A stretch of 25,820 nt of DNA from a virus: positions 1 through 25,820 of the IMG/VR virus record IMGVR_UViG_3300025889_000848. One strand, given 5' to 3'. The position numbers and the translations under genes were made by a program. A model generated the notes under the pieces. It was not told the origin of the DNA, did no database searches, and worked only from the letters and a program-made list of their open reading frames with translations. Of the stretch, positions 11,296 through 24,878 are shown one piece after another (position 1 is the stretch's first letter; every line of letters begins with the position of its first letter).

Positions 11296-11506
11296 ATTCT
11301 TTTCCTCGTGGTCTTGAGTTGACCCAATCCTCGATCTCGCTAAGAACCCAGCGACTAGACGACCGCTTGTTGGTTTCGTCACCCAACACAATCGGTTGTG
11401 GAAAACTGGTCGAGTTATGCGCCAACTTGTAAACGTAGGATTTAGACACCCCAAGCAGGTCAGCTACCTCTCCCACGCGCAACAGTCTGTTAGAATGGGA
11501 TGTCAT
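11279..11506 (-). CDS. AlpA/MerR-like helix-turn-helix DNA-binding protein
   Basis: The protein is 75 aa. RVGEVADLLGVSKSYVYKLA forms a helix-turn-helix at about 10-29, followed by FPQPIVLGDE and SSRWVLSEIEDWVNSR. This is the AlpA/excisionase-like layout of HTH, short wing with an S-R-W strand, and terminal E...W helix. The ribosome binding site is perfect (AAAGGAG before the ATG). It overlaps the primase end by 17 nt and the helicase start by 17 nt. AlpA-type proteins act as transcription activators or excision factors. No integrase is in the window, so a regulatory or origin-binding role within the replication operon is as likely as excision. Confidence 0.8.
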   Translation of the reverse strand: MTSHSNRLLRVGEVADLLGVSKSYVYKLAHNSTSFPQPIVLGDETNKRSSSRWVLSEIEDWVNSRPRGKEYDTES

Positions 11507-13025
11507 TACTCATCTCCTTTTTTGGCAATTCTACTTCTTCCTCATCAAATGCAGGGACAGCCCAACACCGTACAGTGCTTCTCTTTTCCCCCTTCGGTGT
11601 TCTTTTGACTACATTCAAATGGGTGTTGTCCCCGCCCAAGTCCCGTATCATTTGAGTAACCGCGCCTCGGCTCTCCACTTTGAACCTGCGGTTATGCAAG
11701 AACTCTAGCAATCCATCCAGTTTGAACTTCGTCACGCCGCCATCGGTCCACGGCTTGCCCATATCGATTTCCTCTGGTGCCATCGCACGAATATGGCTCG
11801 TGCAATAGGTGCGAAGCAGGTCGGAGAACTGTCCCTTGATTGTCAATTCCGCTGGTACATCGAGGAGCGTGGCTTGGTTCATCAAACTGTTAACCATCTG
11901 CTGCCACTTCTGTGCCTTGGTTGTCGGCGGCATGAACATACACTGGTCCATGCAAGCCCGTTGCCAAAGCGTTTGGTTCTGTAGCTGCTCCGTCGTCAGC
12001 GTAATCCGTGTGCCGTTCACATCCATAAAGTACAAGCGTGGCTCGGACAACATGATCGTCAAACCACCAACCTGCGGTGCATCAGGAGCCTCGCTTCCAA
12101 TGCCATATTTAGACATCGCACAGAGCGATGGGTCACAGTAAGACTTGAACGGCTCGTCCTTGCAGGTGTACCCGTAGTCTTTCTTCTCATGCTGACTGAT
12201 GATCGTCGTCACTTCTTTGGCTGGCAGCGGGGGGGAGAAGAGTGTACGGTTGTACTCCTCCAGTGACTCCTGCCAACTGTCAGGGAATTTATTCTTGCAG
12301 TACACCGCTATCATAAACAGCAGCTTGTTCCGAGGCTCAGACAATGGCCCGTTCTGAAACAGATACCGTAGGCACGGTGGTCCATCCTCAAAGTGTTGAC
12401 GCACCTTCTTAACTGTACGCACCAGTTCCAATTCATCCAGCGATGTACGGTGGTCTTCGATCCAATCCAAGAACTCATCTAATTCCATGGCCTCGGTCGC
12501 CCCGTTATAGCAAAACCGTTGCGGCATCTCTGCGTCAAAGTATGGCATGTTGATGAAGTTGCCCACGTCCCCACGCTCGGCAATGATCTGATCCTGCTTC
12601 GGGAATATCTCACACCCACTGTGCCCCAACAAGATCGACATCTCCGTAAGGTACTCACGAACAATCGCGGCCTTTTCAAATTCTTTAAGAAACAAATACA
12701 AGTGCGCCCCGCCAGACTTAGATCGGCAATGCGCCAGCGGTAAATCCAACTGCTGTATCTTTTGCTGCAACTCTCTGTGGTTCAGGTCGTACACATCGAT
12801 GTCGATGGCCCCAAATTTACACTCGTTGTTCTCGTTGATTGGTATCGCACCAACGCCGTGCTTCCCATCTATGTGGTCCTGCACCAGCTTCTCGGTCAGT
12901 GGCTCCCGAACAATTCTACTTTGACTTTCTGCTTTACCGTTCCGACTAACACGACCAACAACAGTCGTACCGTGAGCGTTCGTCGCACCGACGTACGCGG
13001 CAAGCAGCCTTTTTGCTTGTGACAT
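11490..13025 (-). CDS. archaeo-eukaryotic primase (AEP) superfamily primase with Cys-rich C-terminal part
   Basis: The protein is 511 aa. The AEP catalytic core is visible as FGAIDIDVY (acidic pair Asp75/Asp77), then HCRSKSGGAHLYLFLKE (the SGG-HLY histidine motif, about 100-114), then CEIFPKQDQI (about 138-147). This arrangement resembles the AEP primases of TOTE systems and of many phages. A second part carries PPCLRYL (Cys218) and CKDEPFKSYCDPSLC (Cys288, Cys297, Cys302), a possible four-Cys metal or Fe-S site like that of primase large subunits. The extreme C-terminus is SNDIPF, resembling the tip of bacterial SSB. The ATG has AGGAG 7 nt upstream. It probably makes primers for the family A polymerase. 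The domain assignment is from motifs; the metal site is inference. Confidence 0.8.
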   Translation of the reverse strand: MSQAKRLLAAYVGATNAHGTTVVGRVSRNGKAESQSRIVREPLTEKLVQDHIDGKHGVGAIPINENNECKFGAIDIDVYDLNHRELQQKIQQLDLPLAHCRSKSGGAHLYLFLKEFEKAAIVREYLTEMSILLGHSGCEIFPKQDQIIAERGDVGNFINMPYFDAEMPQRFCYNGATEAMELDEFLDWIEDHRTSLDELELVRTVKKVRQHFEDGPPCLRYLFQNGPLSEPRNKLLFMIAVYCKNKFPDSWQESLEEYNRTLFSPPLPAKEVTTIISQHEKKDYGYTCKDEPFKSYCDPSLCAMSKYGIGSEAPDAPQVGGLTIMLSEPRLYFMDVNGTRITLTTEQLQNQTLWQRACMDQCMFMPPTTKAQKWQQMVNSLMNQATLLDVPAELTIKGQFSDLLRTYCTSHIRAMAPEEIDMGKPWTDGGVTKFKLDGLLEFLHNRRFKVESRGAVTQMIRDLGGDNTHLNVVKRTPKGEKRSTVRCWAVPAFDEEEVELPKKEMSNDIPF

Positions 13026-13091: not shown

Positions 13092-13883
13092 TTAGAACGG
13101 AATGTCGTCCCTTTCAGAGTTGGATTGAGTGTCATTACCCATCTCTGGTGCAGCTTTCACTTCACCAGCCGCAACGCTATCGCGGAACGACTTGGCTTCC
13201 AATAGGAGTTCGCGGTTCTCTAACAAACCGACCTTCTCGACAGAATAATTAAACCATGAACCTTGGTCATTAGCTTCCTCAACTGTCGTAAACCTCCACT
13301 GTGTAGCAAACAGCGGTGGCGTAATCAACTGCCCTGTCTTAGGGTGCTTGACTTTCTGCATCGCAATCTGCGTTTTCCAACGTCTACTAACCTTCAACTG
13401 AGACGACTTCATGTCGACCACAACAGGTTGGAAGCCGCCGTCGTCATCCAAGATCAGGCAATAGTGTTGATCTGATTTAACCAACTCGTTACCTGTCGGA
13501 AGCATCTCCTTCGCACCTTGGCGCTCGGTCCGTTTCAGTATTGGGTCCGTTGCCGAAATCTCGCCACGGAAACCACCACCCTGCTCACGCGGCGTGAACT
13601 CCAGATACTTTGTGGTTTGGAAACATGGGATGATAGTTATTCCATCTTCGCCTGTCCAAAGCTGCTTTGTCACAGTGTTAAACATGTCGCCCTGTTCTGC
13701 ACCTTCAATGTACTCAGCTTCACGCTTCTTCAACTGTGGGGACATCGCTTGCAAGATACGCACGAACGGGATCTGCATCTCCGAACTGTCGTATGCTGTA
13801 CCTTCACCCGCATACTCAAAGATGTCATCCAATACATCTGTGCTTAACTCTGCACTTTTTTTCTTTGCAACTGCGGTAGCCAT
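13092..13883 (-). CDS. single-stranded-DNA-binding-like protein ending in DDIPF
   Basis: The protein is 263 aa. The central region (about 30-210) is rich in beta-strand and aromatic residues (DGITIIPCFQTTKYLEFTPR, KVSRRWKTQIAMQKV), compatible with a phage OB-fold ssDNA-binding protein. It ends with a polar linker and the acidic tip SERDDIPF, nearly identical to the C-terminal peptide by which bacterial SSB recruits partners. I chose the ATG at 13883 (TGATG overlap with the previous gene, GGAGG 8 nt upstream) over an overlapping GTG at 13886. It lies directly before the primase. The SSB role is inferred from the tail, the composition and the location between replication genes; the core is not a recognisable E. 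coli-type SSB. Confidence 0.7.
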   Translation of the reverse strand: MATAVAKKKSAELSTDVLDDIFEYAGEGTAYDSSEMQIPFVRILQAMSPQLKKREAEYIEGAEQGDMFNTVTKQLWTGEDGITIIPCFQTTKYLEFTPREQGGGFRGEISATDPILKRTERQGAKEMLPTGNELVKSDQHYCLILDDDGGFQPVVVDMKSSQLKVSRRWKTQIAMQKVKHPKTGQLITPPLFATQWRFTTVEEANDQGSWFNYSVEKVGLLENRELLLEAKSFRDSVAAGEVKAAPEMGNDTQSNSERDDIPF

Positions 13884-14443
13884 CACGCTTTCCTCCGAAT
13901 TTGTGCTGCGTTTGAAATGAACGCCCCGAACATATCGAGGTCGATTGGTTTGCCATCCGTCACACGTTCCTTCACGAACGCTTTCAGTGTGGACGGATGT
14001 ACGTGGGTCTTGGTGCTCGGCTCAAAGCCAGCGTCTTCCAAGATGCTGATCACATTCTTGGCGCTGTTGTCCTGACCCTTTCCAAAAGAACAAGTAACAT
14101 CGTTCTTAATGATGTCGTCGCACCCGTTCTCTCGCAGCCATGCGAAGGCTTCGTCTTTGCGATCCGCTGGGATCGATGCGCTCACGATCATCTTACGCTC
14201 GACGGTCACACCGTCTACGTCCAATCGCTCCACGCCCATCTCATCCATCAACTGCGGGATCGTCTCCACCGACATGCGATGCTTGTCCTGCTTCAATAGT
14301 TTAAGATGGTTTTCCGCGTCCTCGATCTGTTGTTCTACTCCGCGAAGTGCTCGGACCAGTTGGCTTAACTGCTTTCCTGTTCCTGTATCGACGTTAGCCA
14401 GTGCCTGACCTTCGTCAAATATGTCGTCGAATATATCGCTCAT
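13883..14443 (-). CDS. conserved phage protein with N-terminal coiled coil, first gene of replication operon
   Basis: The protein is 186 aa. An acidic start (MSDIFDDIFDEG) is followed by a coiled coil (about 22-58, QLVRALRGVEQQIEDAENHL). A small alpha/beta domain follows (MGVERLDVDGVTVERKMIVSASIP), then FAWLRENGCDDIIKNDV, CSFGKG and a C-terminal HPSTLKAFVKERV. I recognise this combination (helical spacer, FAWLREN.G..D.IKN, VHP.TLKA.V) as a family common in the early region of tailed phages and often next to SSB genes. Its function is unknown. The ribosome binding site AGAGGA is 9 nt before the ATG. It is transcribed divergently from the SNF2 helicase. Confidence 0.75.
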   Translation of the reverse strand: MSDIFDDIFDEGQALANVDTGTGKQLSQLVRALRGVEQQIEDAENHLKLLKQDKHRMSVETIPQLMDEMGVERLDVDGVTVERKMIVSASIPADRKDEAFAWLRENGCDDIIKNDVTCSFGKGQDNSAKNVISILEDAGFEPSTKTHVHPSTLKAFVKERVTDGKPIDLDMFGAFISNAAQIRRKA

Positions 14444-17184: not shown

Positions 17185-17422
17185 TTTTTATAACCTCCGG
17201 TCTTAATTCGGGCCTTAGTATGTACGAAACCTCCTCCGATACATAACACTCCATCATGATGTCGGTGCCGTACAACTCATACAAATGATTATAAAGAGGA
17301 TCAAACAACCTGTCGTTCATCGCCTCAATGCAACGGCTCTCCCGATCATACCATACCGCCGCTTTAACAGGCTCACCGTCAATCGCGTAACTGATCACCA
17401 ACGCAGTATAGTAATAAATCAT
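17177..17422 (-). CDS. small hypothetical protein (81 aa)
   Basis: It starts MIYYYTALVISYAIDGE. The ATG overlaps the previous stop (ATGA) and GGGAAG lies about 8 nt upstream. The N-terminus is strand-rich and aromatic and the middle is helical (FDPLYNHLYELYG). It continues MMECYVSEEVSYILRPELRPEV. It could be a small alpha/beta fold. No recognised family or catalytic motif. Confidence 0.65.
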   Translation of the reverse strand: MIYYYTALVISYAIDGEPVKAAVWYDRESRCIEAMNDRLFDPLYNHLYELYGTDIMMECYVSEEVSYILRPELRPEVIKNG

Positions 17423-17661
17423 CTGACAACTTCCCAAACATTCTCCCGCGCAACGTTGTCCTCAGTGTCCCTGATCAAACCCTGCTTGTGCAAAGCAGTC
17501 AGGGTCGCCCGAATAATCGTCAGCTTCAAACCGGTTCGATCCGCCAACTGCCGCGCAGTCCCCGCACCTCGGCCCAACTCAGCAAGGATCTGCTCCTTCC
17601 GCGTTAGCTTCTGGTTGGTCTGTTGCTTGCGCGTCATCCTGTCCCACATTTTCTTAAACAT
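17419..17661 (-). CDS. winged-helix DNA-binding protein
   Basis: The 80-aa protein has a basic N-terminal tail (FKKMWDRMTRKQQTNQK). A winged-helix/MarR-like HTH follows: LTRKEQILAELGRG, then TARQLADRTGLKLTIIRATL as the HTH (about 40-59), then ALHKQGLIRD and a wing strand (ENVWEVV). It is probably a transcription regulator of early genes. The start at 17661 has a perfect AAAGGAG site; an in-frame GTG at 17679 is rejected. It overlaps the upstream gene by 8 nt. Confidence 0.75.
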   Translation of the reverse strand: MFKKMWDRMTRKQQTNQKLTRKEQILAELGRGAGTARQLADRTGLKLTIIRATLTALHKQGLIRDTEDNVARENVWEVVR

Positions 17662-18235
17662 TCTTTGTCTCCTTTTCACTATAGATGTCTATCACTCCGA
17701 CACCCTCCATCTCTGCGCCCGTAAGTGCAGAAAATTCCTCCCGTGCTAATTGCGCAGCTTCAACGCTGTTCGCCGCTTCAACCAACACCAACCGAGAAAC
17801 CACGCCCTCGCATACTACTTCATACGTTTTCATTTCTTTCAGATACCTTTCTTCTAGTCCCATTAACCAAAACGTTGTCGCGTCAAACTCAACACGCAAC
17901 AACTCATCTCGTATCTCGCACCAACGGTTCATGTTGATCCCCGTCTCCTCGATAAACTCTTTCGCACTGTTCGTCTTAACAAGGAACTCCAGTGGACTTA
18001 GCTTCAGATAGCCTCGATTGCTCAGATACGTCTTCGTTCTTGTTTGCAGCCGCAAGTACCACATAGTCTTTGGGTCTTTGCTGCGCTCCAACGCACCATC
18101 ATAACAGTCCAGTTTCCATAGCCAGTTTCGGATTGTAGCCGAGGTCACGCCAAACTCTTTCGCGATCTCCTTCTGAGCGATACCCTCGTCATGCATAGCC
18201 TTGGCCTTGACCCACCTGTTATCAAGTTTCCGCAT
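17654..18235 (-). CDS. HTH protein with resolvase-type N-terminal helix-turn-helix
   Basis: The protein is 193 aa. Residues of about 3-40 form an HTH: RWVKAKAMHDEGIAQKEIAKEFGV then TSATIRNWLW, like the helix pairs of resolvases and transposases. The middle is helical and aromatic with no recognised fold (LSPLEFLVKTNSAKEFIEET). The C-terminal 60 residues form a beta-alpha unit (TYEVVCEGVVSRLVLVEAANS, AAQLAREEF, GVGVIDIYSE) similar in style to small DpnD/PcfM-like domains. The ATG at 18235 has AGGAGG 9 nt upstream. It is likely a DNA-binding regulator. The C-terminal comparison is tentative. Confidence 0.7.
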   Translation of the reverse strand: MRKLDNRWVKAKAMHDEGIAQKEIAKEFGVTSATIRNWLWKLDCYDGALERSKDPKTMWYLRLQTRTKTYLSNRGYLKLSPLEFLVKTNSAKEFIEETGINMNRWCEIRDELLRVEFDATTFWLMGLEERYLKEMKTYEVVCEGVVSRLVLVEAANSVEAAQLAREEFSALTGAEMEGVGVIDIYSEKETKNV

Positions 18236-21402: not shown

Positions 21403-21490
21403 GCGGTTCGCGGCTCTTGGTCCTGTGTTTACCCTTATAACAGTTTTTTCTAGATTTTTACGACCACCGTTCAATCCCTTTCAAATTTAA

Positions 21491-21577
21491 TGTAATCAGC
21501 GTAATAAGTGTAATCACCCATTGAAAACATTGCAAAAAACTGCCCTGAGAAGATTACACTTGATTACATTTATTACG
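21491..21577. repeat. two inverted arrays of three octamers (GTAATCA-type)
   Basis: Left array: TGTAATCA (21491), CGTAATAA (21500), TGTAATCA (21509), exactly 9 bp apart. Right array, in opposite orientation: AGATTACA (21551), TGATTACA (21561), TTATTACG (21570), spaced 10 and 9 bp. TTATTACG is the exact complement of CGTAATAA, and TGATTACA of TGTAATCA. The arrays are 34 bp apart. The right array ends 20 bp before the TATACT -10 of the terS promoter. This is most likely a protein-binding site set (regulator, packaging or replication); see findings. Confidence 0.75.
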
Positions 21578-21597: not shown

Positions 21598-21603
21598 TAT
21601 ACT
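21598..21603 (+). promoter_or_regulatory. -10 element of promoter for terS and nuclease genes
   Basis: TATACT matches the -10 consensus at five of six positions. No acceptable TTGACA-like -35 lies 15-19 bp upstream; that position is next to the last octamer of the inverted array. This suggests a promoter that depends on an activator bound to the array. The leader of about 100 nt to the terS ATG includes a small GCAC/GTGC hairpin (21609-21620). Confidence 0.55.
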
Positions 21604-21711: not shown

Positions 21712-22266
21712 ATGGCATCCCTTGAGAAGAAAATTGAACAACAACACGGTCGCCAACTGACCAACCGACAGAAGACGTTTGCTAGACACATTGTCGAGGG
21801 CATCTACTCGAATGCTGAGTGTGCAAGGAAAGCAGGGTATGTAGAAACAAAGGCCAAAGACTATGCCTCTGTTCTGCTTAATGGCAGAGACTACCCACAT
21901 GTTCTGGAATATATACAGGAACTAAGAGAGGAACGAGAGCGGCGATATGGTGTGACAACTATTGGTCAGCTTGAGCGGCTGCATAAGTTATCCTTGGGTG
22001 CGGAAGACGCGGGGCAATTCTCTGCGGCAATCAACGCTGAAAAGATACGGTCTGCCTTGGGTGGTTTGACGGTTGACAGAAGGGAAAACATAAACACCAT
22101 TGATCAGATGTCGCGGGATGAGATCACCGCTCGACTGGCTGCATTGCAGAAGCAATATCCTCAAGCGTTTGTGATCGAAGGTACAGCAAAGGATATTACA
22201 CCGGATGAGCAAGGGACCAGAGGCGAACTTTTGGCAATCGATCAGGAGCAACCTACCGAAGAATAG
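21712..22266 (+). CDS. terminase small subunit (TerS)
   Basis: The protein is 184 aa. The N-terminal region (LTNRQKTFARHIVEG then NAECARKAGYVETKAKDYASVLL) matches the HTH segment of Terminase_2-type small subunits (LT.kQ..F......G....A...AGY....A). A helical oligomerisation region follows (YPHVLEYIQELREERERRYG). The C-terminus is acidic, as in other TerS proteins that contact the large subunit. TerS rings recognise pac/cos DNA and start packaging. I chose the ATG at 21712 (GAGG upstream); the 27 upstream codons are not protein-like. The large terminase is not visible downstream, so the packaging genes are separated or lie beyond the window. Confidence 0.75.
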   Translation: MASLEKKIEQQHGRQLTNRQKTFARHIVEGIYSNAECARKAGYVETKAKDYASVLLNGRDYPHVLEYIQELREERERRYGVTTIGQLERLHKLSLGAEDAGQFSAAINAEKIRSALGGLTVDRRENINTIDQMSRDEITARLAALQKQYPQAFVIEGTAKDITPDEQGTRGELLAIDQEQPTEE

Positions 22267-24384: not shown

Positions 24385-24756
24385 TTACTTGCCGCAACAA
24401 GGGCATTTGTCTTTCTTCAATGTGTTTAACCTGGTGGTGATCGATGTGGTGGTACGTCTGATGCACCATGCCAGGCAGTGGATAACGTCGCCTCGTTTCC
24501 CTGTGCCTTCGTACTTGTTCATGAATGACAGCATCAGGTTATCTTCTTTCTCTTCCCAAGGTAGTGACATCCTGTTCCAAAATCTTTGAGCATACGCTGG
24601 ATGATCCCATTGGTTCAGTCTTGCCTTGCGAACCATGTCGCGCCCGTCGTTGAGGGCGCGTTTGAACTCATCGTCATAGATCCAGCGGCTATCTACTACA
24701 GGCTCTCCATTGCTGTAGTATTCGCCTGTTTTCCATACATGATGATCTATTTTCAT
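24385..24756 (-). CDS. Myb/SANT-like DNA-binding candidate with terminal zinc-ribbon Cys
   Basis: The 123-aa protein starts MKIDHHVWKTGEYYSNGEPV. The C-terminal half (SLPWEEKEDNLMLSFMNKYEG, then HCLAWCIRRTTTSITTRLNTL) fits a SANT/Myb-like HTH (W-EED--L, then I--L-RT--SI--RL--L). It ends KDKCPCCGK, a possible metal-binding knuckle. The N-terminal 60 residues are unrecognised. The ATG overlaps the stop of the 41-aa gene (ATGA). It may be a DNA-binding regulator of the accessory region; the Myb match is pattern-based. Confidence 0.65.
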   Translation of the reverse strand: MKIDHHVWKTGEYYSNGEPVVDSRWIYDDEFKRALNDGRDMVRKARLNQWDHPAYAQRFWNRMSLPWEEKEDNLMLSFMNKYEGTGKRGDVIHCLAWCIRRTTTSITTRLNTLKKDKCPCCGK

Positions 24757-24878
24757 GTCGTTACTCCTAGTAAAATGAACAGCATCGCAAACAATGCGAC
24801 GCAGCCCAGTACATCCTCGAGTACCGTGGTCTGACGACCACGGCACCATTTAATTAATGTCTCGATAGCGTGAAACAT
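24753..24878 (-). CDS. 41-aa single-pass membrane protein
   Basis: It starts MFHAIETLIKWCRGRQTTVL and ends in VALFAMLFILLGVTT. A short basic N-terminal segment precedes one hydrophobic helix of about 16-18 residues, typical of tiny inner-membrane phage proteins. It is joined by TGATG to the upstream gene and ATGA to the downstream gene, which supports it despite the small size. The ribosome binding site is weak (AAGG about 11 nt away), fitting translational coupling. Function unknown; holin-like or signalling roles are possible but unproven. Confidence 0.6.
   Translation of the reverse strand: MFHAIETLIKWCRGRQTTVLEDVLGCVALFAMLFILLGVTT

Follow-up and report, generated by a model that had tools for sequence, protein, structure and literature searches.

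What is the role of two short repeat arrays, inverted relative to each other, that lie upstream of the small terminase gene (terS) of an uncultivated virus? The window, by which we mean the whole 25.8-kb virus record analysed here, encodes before the array a DNA polymerase A, UvrD-like and SNF2 helicases, a primase of the AEP-TOTE family and a Pam3 gp34-like protein, and beyond it terS followed by a protein matching a helicase PHROG. The array sits between divergent transcription units (Table 1). A first-pass annotation had proposed a pac-type site, an origin or an activator site. The array is probably the replication origin of the phage, with its two inverted iteron triplets bound by the winged helix (wHTH) of the AEP-TOTE primase.

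Table 1. Positions in the window of the double array, the surrounding elements and the primase domains.
Feature	Position	Strand	Remarks
T-rich tract left of arrays	21444..21459	.	many relatives have a run of ~15-25 T
Left iteron array, three units, GTAATCA core, 9-bp steps	21491..21516	+	same layout in relatives
Left-array units TGTAATCA, CGTAATAA, TGTAATCA	21491-21498, 21500-21507, 21509-21516		steps 9, 9
Spacer, 34 bp	21517..21550	.	homologous spacer holds cumulative GC-skew minimum in G001, G003
Right iteron array, three units, inverted vs left array	21551..21577	-	steps 10, 9
Right-array units AGATTACA, TGATTACA, TTATTACG	21551-21558, 21561-21568, 21570-21577		
-10-like box TATACT, rightward terS transcript	21598..21603	+	CTATATAG in relatives
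terS (Terminase_2)	21712..22266	+	gene downstream of arrays; not their reader
AEP-TOTE primase (PF22548), putative initiator	11490..13025	-	57.9 bits vs cut-off 27
C-terminal winged helix, primase residues 436-492	11550..11720	-	covaries with repeats
Beta-hairpin wing, primase residues 466-491	11553..11630	-	hot columns 469, 471, 473, 478, 482, 484, 485

The six repeats are real. The octamers and the spacer were found where the annotation had placed them; its exact 9-bp steps hold for the left array and not for the right one, where the first step is longer. The two arrays contain arms of 17 nt (21500-21516 and 21561-21577) with 94% complementarity. A detector requiring at least two direct and at least two inverted copies of one 6-mer returned a single site in the window; run on 60 first-order Markov sequences of equal length, it gave a hit in one of them. 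Judging from the sequences of relatives, the recurrence of the layout at the homologous place is stronger support than this chance figure. The array consists of tandem short direct repeats spaced by approximately one helical turn, as expected of iteron origins. The T-tracts beside the left array are short in the window and long in relatives, and the T-rich tract is a possible DNA-unwinding element. The TATACT element that had been attributed to the terS promoter was recovered as a -10-like box placed after the right array and conserved among relatives.

We selected by TerS eighty loci among IMG/VR relatives. They keep the three direct copies, the spacer, the three inverted copies and the TATA-like box, and the 3+3 inverted layout is found upstream of terS in dozens of relatives. 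The unit differs among these relatives and is common to the copies within a locus, with occasional degenerate copies. Units include GTAATCA, GTATCCA, GTCATCA, GTCCTCA, GTACTCA, GTAAACA, GTAACGA, GATACA, and GGAACA, and further GTTACGA, GTGACGA, GTCTCA, GTTACA, GTAGCAT, GTAGAAA, GTAATGA, and GTACTGA (the unit names used in the statistics below were assigned by eye). Around the array, the identity between the genome G001, which has GTCATCA, and its relatives with GTATCCA is mostly 90-100%, and both triplets are different. The annotation had suggested a search for conserved GTAATCA arrays upstream of terS: the architecture is conserved, whereas the octamer sequence is not and switches in concert. 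Its proposal to take the lack of conserved octamers as a refutation would have misled, to judge by these alignments, since the architecture is kept while the sequence changes as a set.

Among 362 contigs selected by the primase, we detected an array in 73, of which 67 also contain the end of the primase gene; the remaining contigs often end short of the array, and a few detections are probably chance-like (e.g., L221, L309, and the second one in L412). Contigs carry about one array each, close to terS, even at primase identities of only 42-50%. Compared by TerS, the closest annotated records (31-39% identity) are the pelagiphages HTVC027P and HTVC023P, the phage 023Pt_psg01, and DSL-LC04. The detector found no double array in these four cultured or complete relatives, and blastn of the array region against phage records gave no match. 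HTVC023P has several CTAGGAAA repeats upstream of terS (L455, ~11700-11850), perhaps an iteron set of different layout. In L077, a further triplet of GTAAT units, additional to the double array, lies in the terS leader, within the 45 bases that precede the start of the gene.

Which protein reads the repeats? Binding sites of TerS proteins are often close to the terS gene itself, and the array adjoins terS, which would fit a packaging site of the pac type to which TerS binds. Yet all repeats change while TerS changes at zero or one residue, so the specificity of the site does not track TerS: L051 and L054 have GTCATCA and GTATCCA with a single residue exchanged in TerS, and L077 and L079 have identical TerS in spite of GTAATCA and GTAAACA arrays. 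We regard a TerS-read pac site as scarcely credible. The RHH-like protein, which the annotation had suggested as a binder together with TerS and an AlpA-like protein, shows 100% identity between G001 and G011 in spite of their different arrays, which excludes it as the determinant of specificity. Two further candidates were rejected. A Myb/SANT-like protein (24385-24849, minus strand) has no homologue in the near-identical relatives L054 and L072. It is a small protein of weak similarity to this family, with a homologue in L051 (7561-7914), and appears cleanly absent from L054 and L072. An HTH gene at about -5.1 kb, in which G001 and G011 have diverged, is outside the gene families common to most sister pairs. 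Between these two genomes, the HTH-like gene at G001 17345-17692 (minus strand) has a sharply diverged N-terminal half and a nearly identical remainder.

The primase follows the units closely. We counted substitutions in the wHTH (residues 440-492) and in the body (residues 1-430) of the protein. The seven closest pairs with different units accumulated 46 substitutions in the wHTH and 44 in the body, as against 14 and 170 in ten pairs with the same unit (Fisher test, p = 1.9e-15). In the former, the divergence is 0.5-3% in the body and 9-17% in the wHTH. The replication genes of G001 and G011 are nearly identical, with a mismatch hot spot among them at the end of the primase gene; some accessory genes elsewhere differ as well. 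We compared the gene families around the array in 11 close pairs whose arrays differ, taking those common to at least 7 of the pairs. The primase is the sole family that differs in every pair, and each of the others shows less than 1% divergence in at least two of them; most contigs in this sample span 10-20 kb around the primase.

Some of these differences come down to single residues. The wHTH of L321, L436, and L450 differs almost solely at residue 484, which is Asn with GTAGCAT, Thr with GTAACCA, and Ser with GTAGAAA. Similarly, L114 and L116 have GTACTCA with T and GTCCTCA with N. In one clade, residue 469 is Leu with GTTACA, Gln with GATACA, Arg with GGAACA, and His with GTAACA. The combination of Leu469 and GTTACA is found in L197 and L417, and that of Gln469 and GATACA in L183 and L396, in parallel, although the primase body of each of the four is more similar to that of phages having different units. 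In the window's clade, GTA units go with Thr at residue 484, GTC units with Asn or Lys, and GTTCTCA likewise with Lys. The relation between residue and base is no strict one-to-one code. When columns were permuted within clades, some body columns ranked high too, this test being confounded by shared ancestry. Taken together, the covariation suggests that the primase reads the repeats.

This pairing has exceptions. L213 and L212 have identical primases and different arrays, the array module of L213 being that of L209. Around position 2233 of L213 there is an apparent recombination junction between the array-terS module and the replication genes. L213 is apparently a natural recombinant or a chimeric contig in which the pairing is broken. 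Also, L209 and L277 share one array module and have different wings (K and S at residue 484). The site might then be an operator or origin read by another phage protein beyond the sample, with the primase wing altered for a linked reason, and the break in L213 and the 10-20 kb spanned by most contigs leave room for such a reader. However, the changes sit at alternating residues of a DNA-binding wing, and residues and units match in parallel in separate clades, which makes this explanation very unlikely.

The structure of the primase is consistent with a role as a reader. The protein scores above the curated cut-off of PF22548, and its fold matches the CAPP prim-pol domain (E 3e-11). Pfam reports AEP-TOTE alone over its 511 residues and no helicase domain, the helicases being separate genes. 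In the AlphaFold model, the wing consists of strands E466-476 and E479-491, which carry columns 469/471/473 and 482/484/485; all seven hot columns are on the predicted hairpin or at its turn. The first match in a fold search with the C-terminal domain was TcpK (Z 7.2, rmsd 2.6 over 82 residues), where Z below 8 can mean a common fold only, and Foldseek with this domain alone gave no significant match. With an Odn-like nuclease in mind, we searched the fetched loci for stand-alone copies of the wHTH; the 359 matches were all primases, except two that were partial or frame-shifted. The primase ends in NDIPF and the adjoining Pam3 gp34-like protein (13092-13886, minus strand) in DDIPF, endings that resemble the extreme C terminus of bacterial SSB; all 33 aligned primases have PF as their last two residues.

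Independent of the primase, GC skew had been proposed as a support for an origin. The cumulative minimum is within ~15 bp of the array centre in three relatives (between the two triplets in G001 and G003, 11 bp from the centre in G002), and ~240 bp from the array in the window and in G010. In nine contigs, third-codon skew is set by the side of the array and not by the strand of the gene: left of it -0.24 (plus strand) and -0.25 (minus strand), right of it +0.36 and +0.19. The window's clade thus shows a strand-independent, replication-like flip, as at a bidirectional origin. We found no flip at the array in other, more distant clades (L293, L305, L321, etc.), and therefore it is the primase link alone that points to an origin there. 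These data also bear on whether the arrays are the operator of a transcription switch, in which the divergent promoters would be controlled by an activator or repressor of the phage, or by the primase in a purely autoregulatory role. In favour of this, divergent transcription units flank the site, the right array directly adjoins the terS promoter, and the -10-like box is conserved. But the covarying reader is a replication enzyme, the skew flips irrespective of gene strand, and the array occurs about once per contig. An operator is thus unlikely as the main function, and the arrays may have a regulatory role besides that of an origin. Of the options raised by the annotation, the origin gained from both wing covariation and skew, and the TerS-read pac site lost.

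An origin read by the primase would work as follows. Two triplets of ~7-bp iterons, with one-turn steps of 9-10 bp, are opposed across the 34-bp spacer. Each iteron would be held by the C-terminal winged helix of a primase, its bases being read mainly through alternate residues of both wing strands. Primases sitting on both inverted triplets would open the spacer together with the neighbouring T-rich DNA, or capture it, and would then prime one fork per direction. Unit and wing residues diversify jointly, which would give each lineage a private origin code. We advance more tentatively that this is a natural beta-wing recognition code, with which widespread aquatic phages re-invent a private origin by changing one to few wing residues and all six iterons. 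Such changes could be adaptive, possibly by escaping interference; if so, its sources might include satellites, competing phages, and origin-directed nucleases.

This proposal gives an origin and an initiator to a large group of mostly uncultivated phages. It also provides dozens of natural initiator-iteron pairs, several of them a few residues apart, as material for testing how the specificity of a winged helix changes, and these pairs bear on whether conflict diversifies phage origins. We did not find the origin of this primase family, the wing code or the 3+3 layout described in the open literature, subscription papers being mostly outside this search; nor did we find an origin discussed in the HTVC023P-type genome paper.

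By analogy, the nearest precedents are the alpha protein of satellite phage P4, the PLE RepA_N initiator with Odn, and AEP proteins that end in a winged helix. P4 alpha has its helicase in the same polypeptide. Its primase is of the TOPRIM type (PMC4234260); the phage primase is of the AEP-TOTE family, with no helicase domain detected. The winged-helix domain of P4 alpha binds short origin repeats (PMC4234260), and here too, by fold prediction, primase and putative origin-binding winged helix are joined in one protein. In PLE, the DNA-binding domain of RepA_N covaries with the origin and modules swap, and ICP1 encodes an origin-directed nuclease, Odn (PMC8263062). The phages resemble PLE in this covariation and swapping of modules. 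PLE differs in its three ~30-bp semi-palindromic iterons, its non-primase initiator, and its two main groups, where we find many unit types; neither the primase nor the other scanned proteins of the window matched RepA_N. TcpK of plasmid pCW3, a wHTH protein, reads tandem 9-nt boxes at oriT through a beta-wing that enters the major groove (PMC6137059). The phage wing would read tandem boxes in a similar way, although TcpK is a conjugation accessory protein. Finally, PolpTN2, PrimQH, and pRN1 ORF904 combine, like the phage primase, an AEP domain and a C-terminal winged helix, for which origin recognition was proposed (PMC5862659; PMC4234260). The pRN1 origin lacks iterons, in contrast to the phage array; and whereas the origin role of these proteins is a suggestion, the covariation between repeats and residues supports such a role here.
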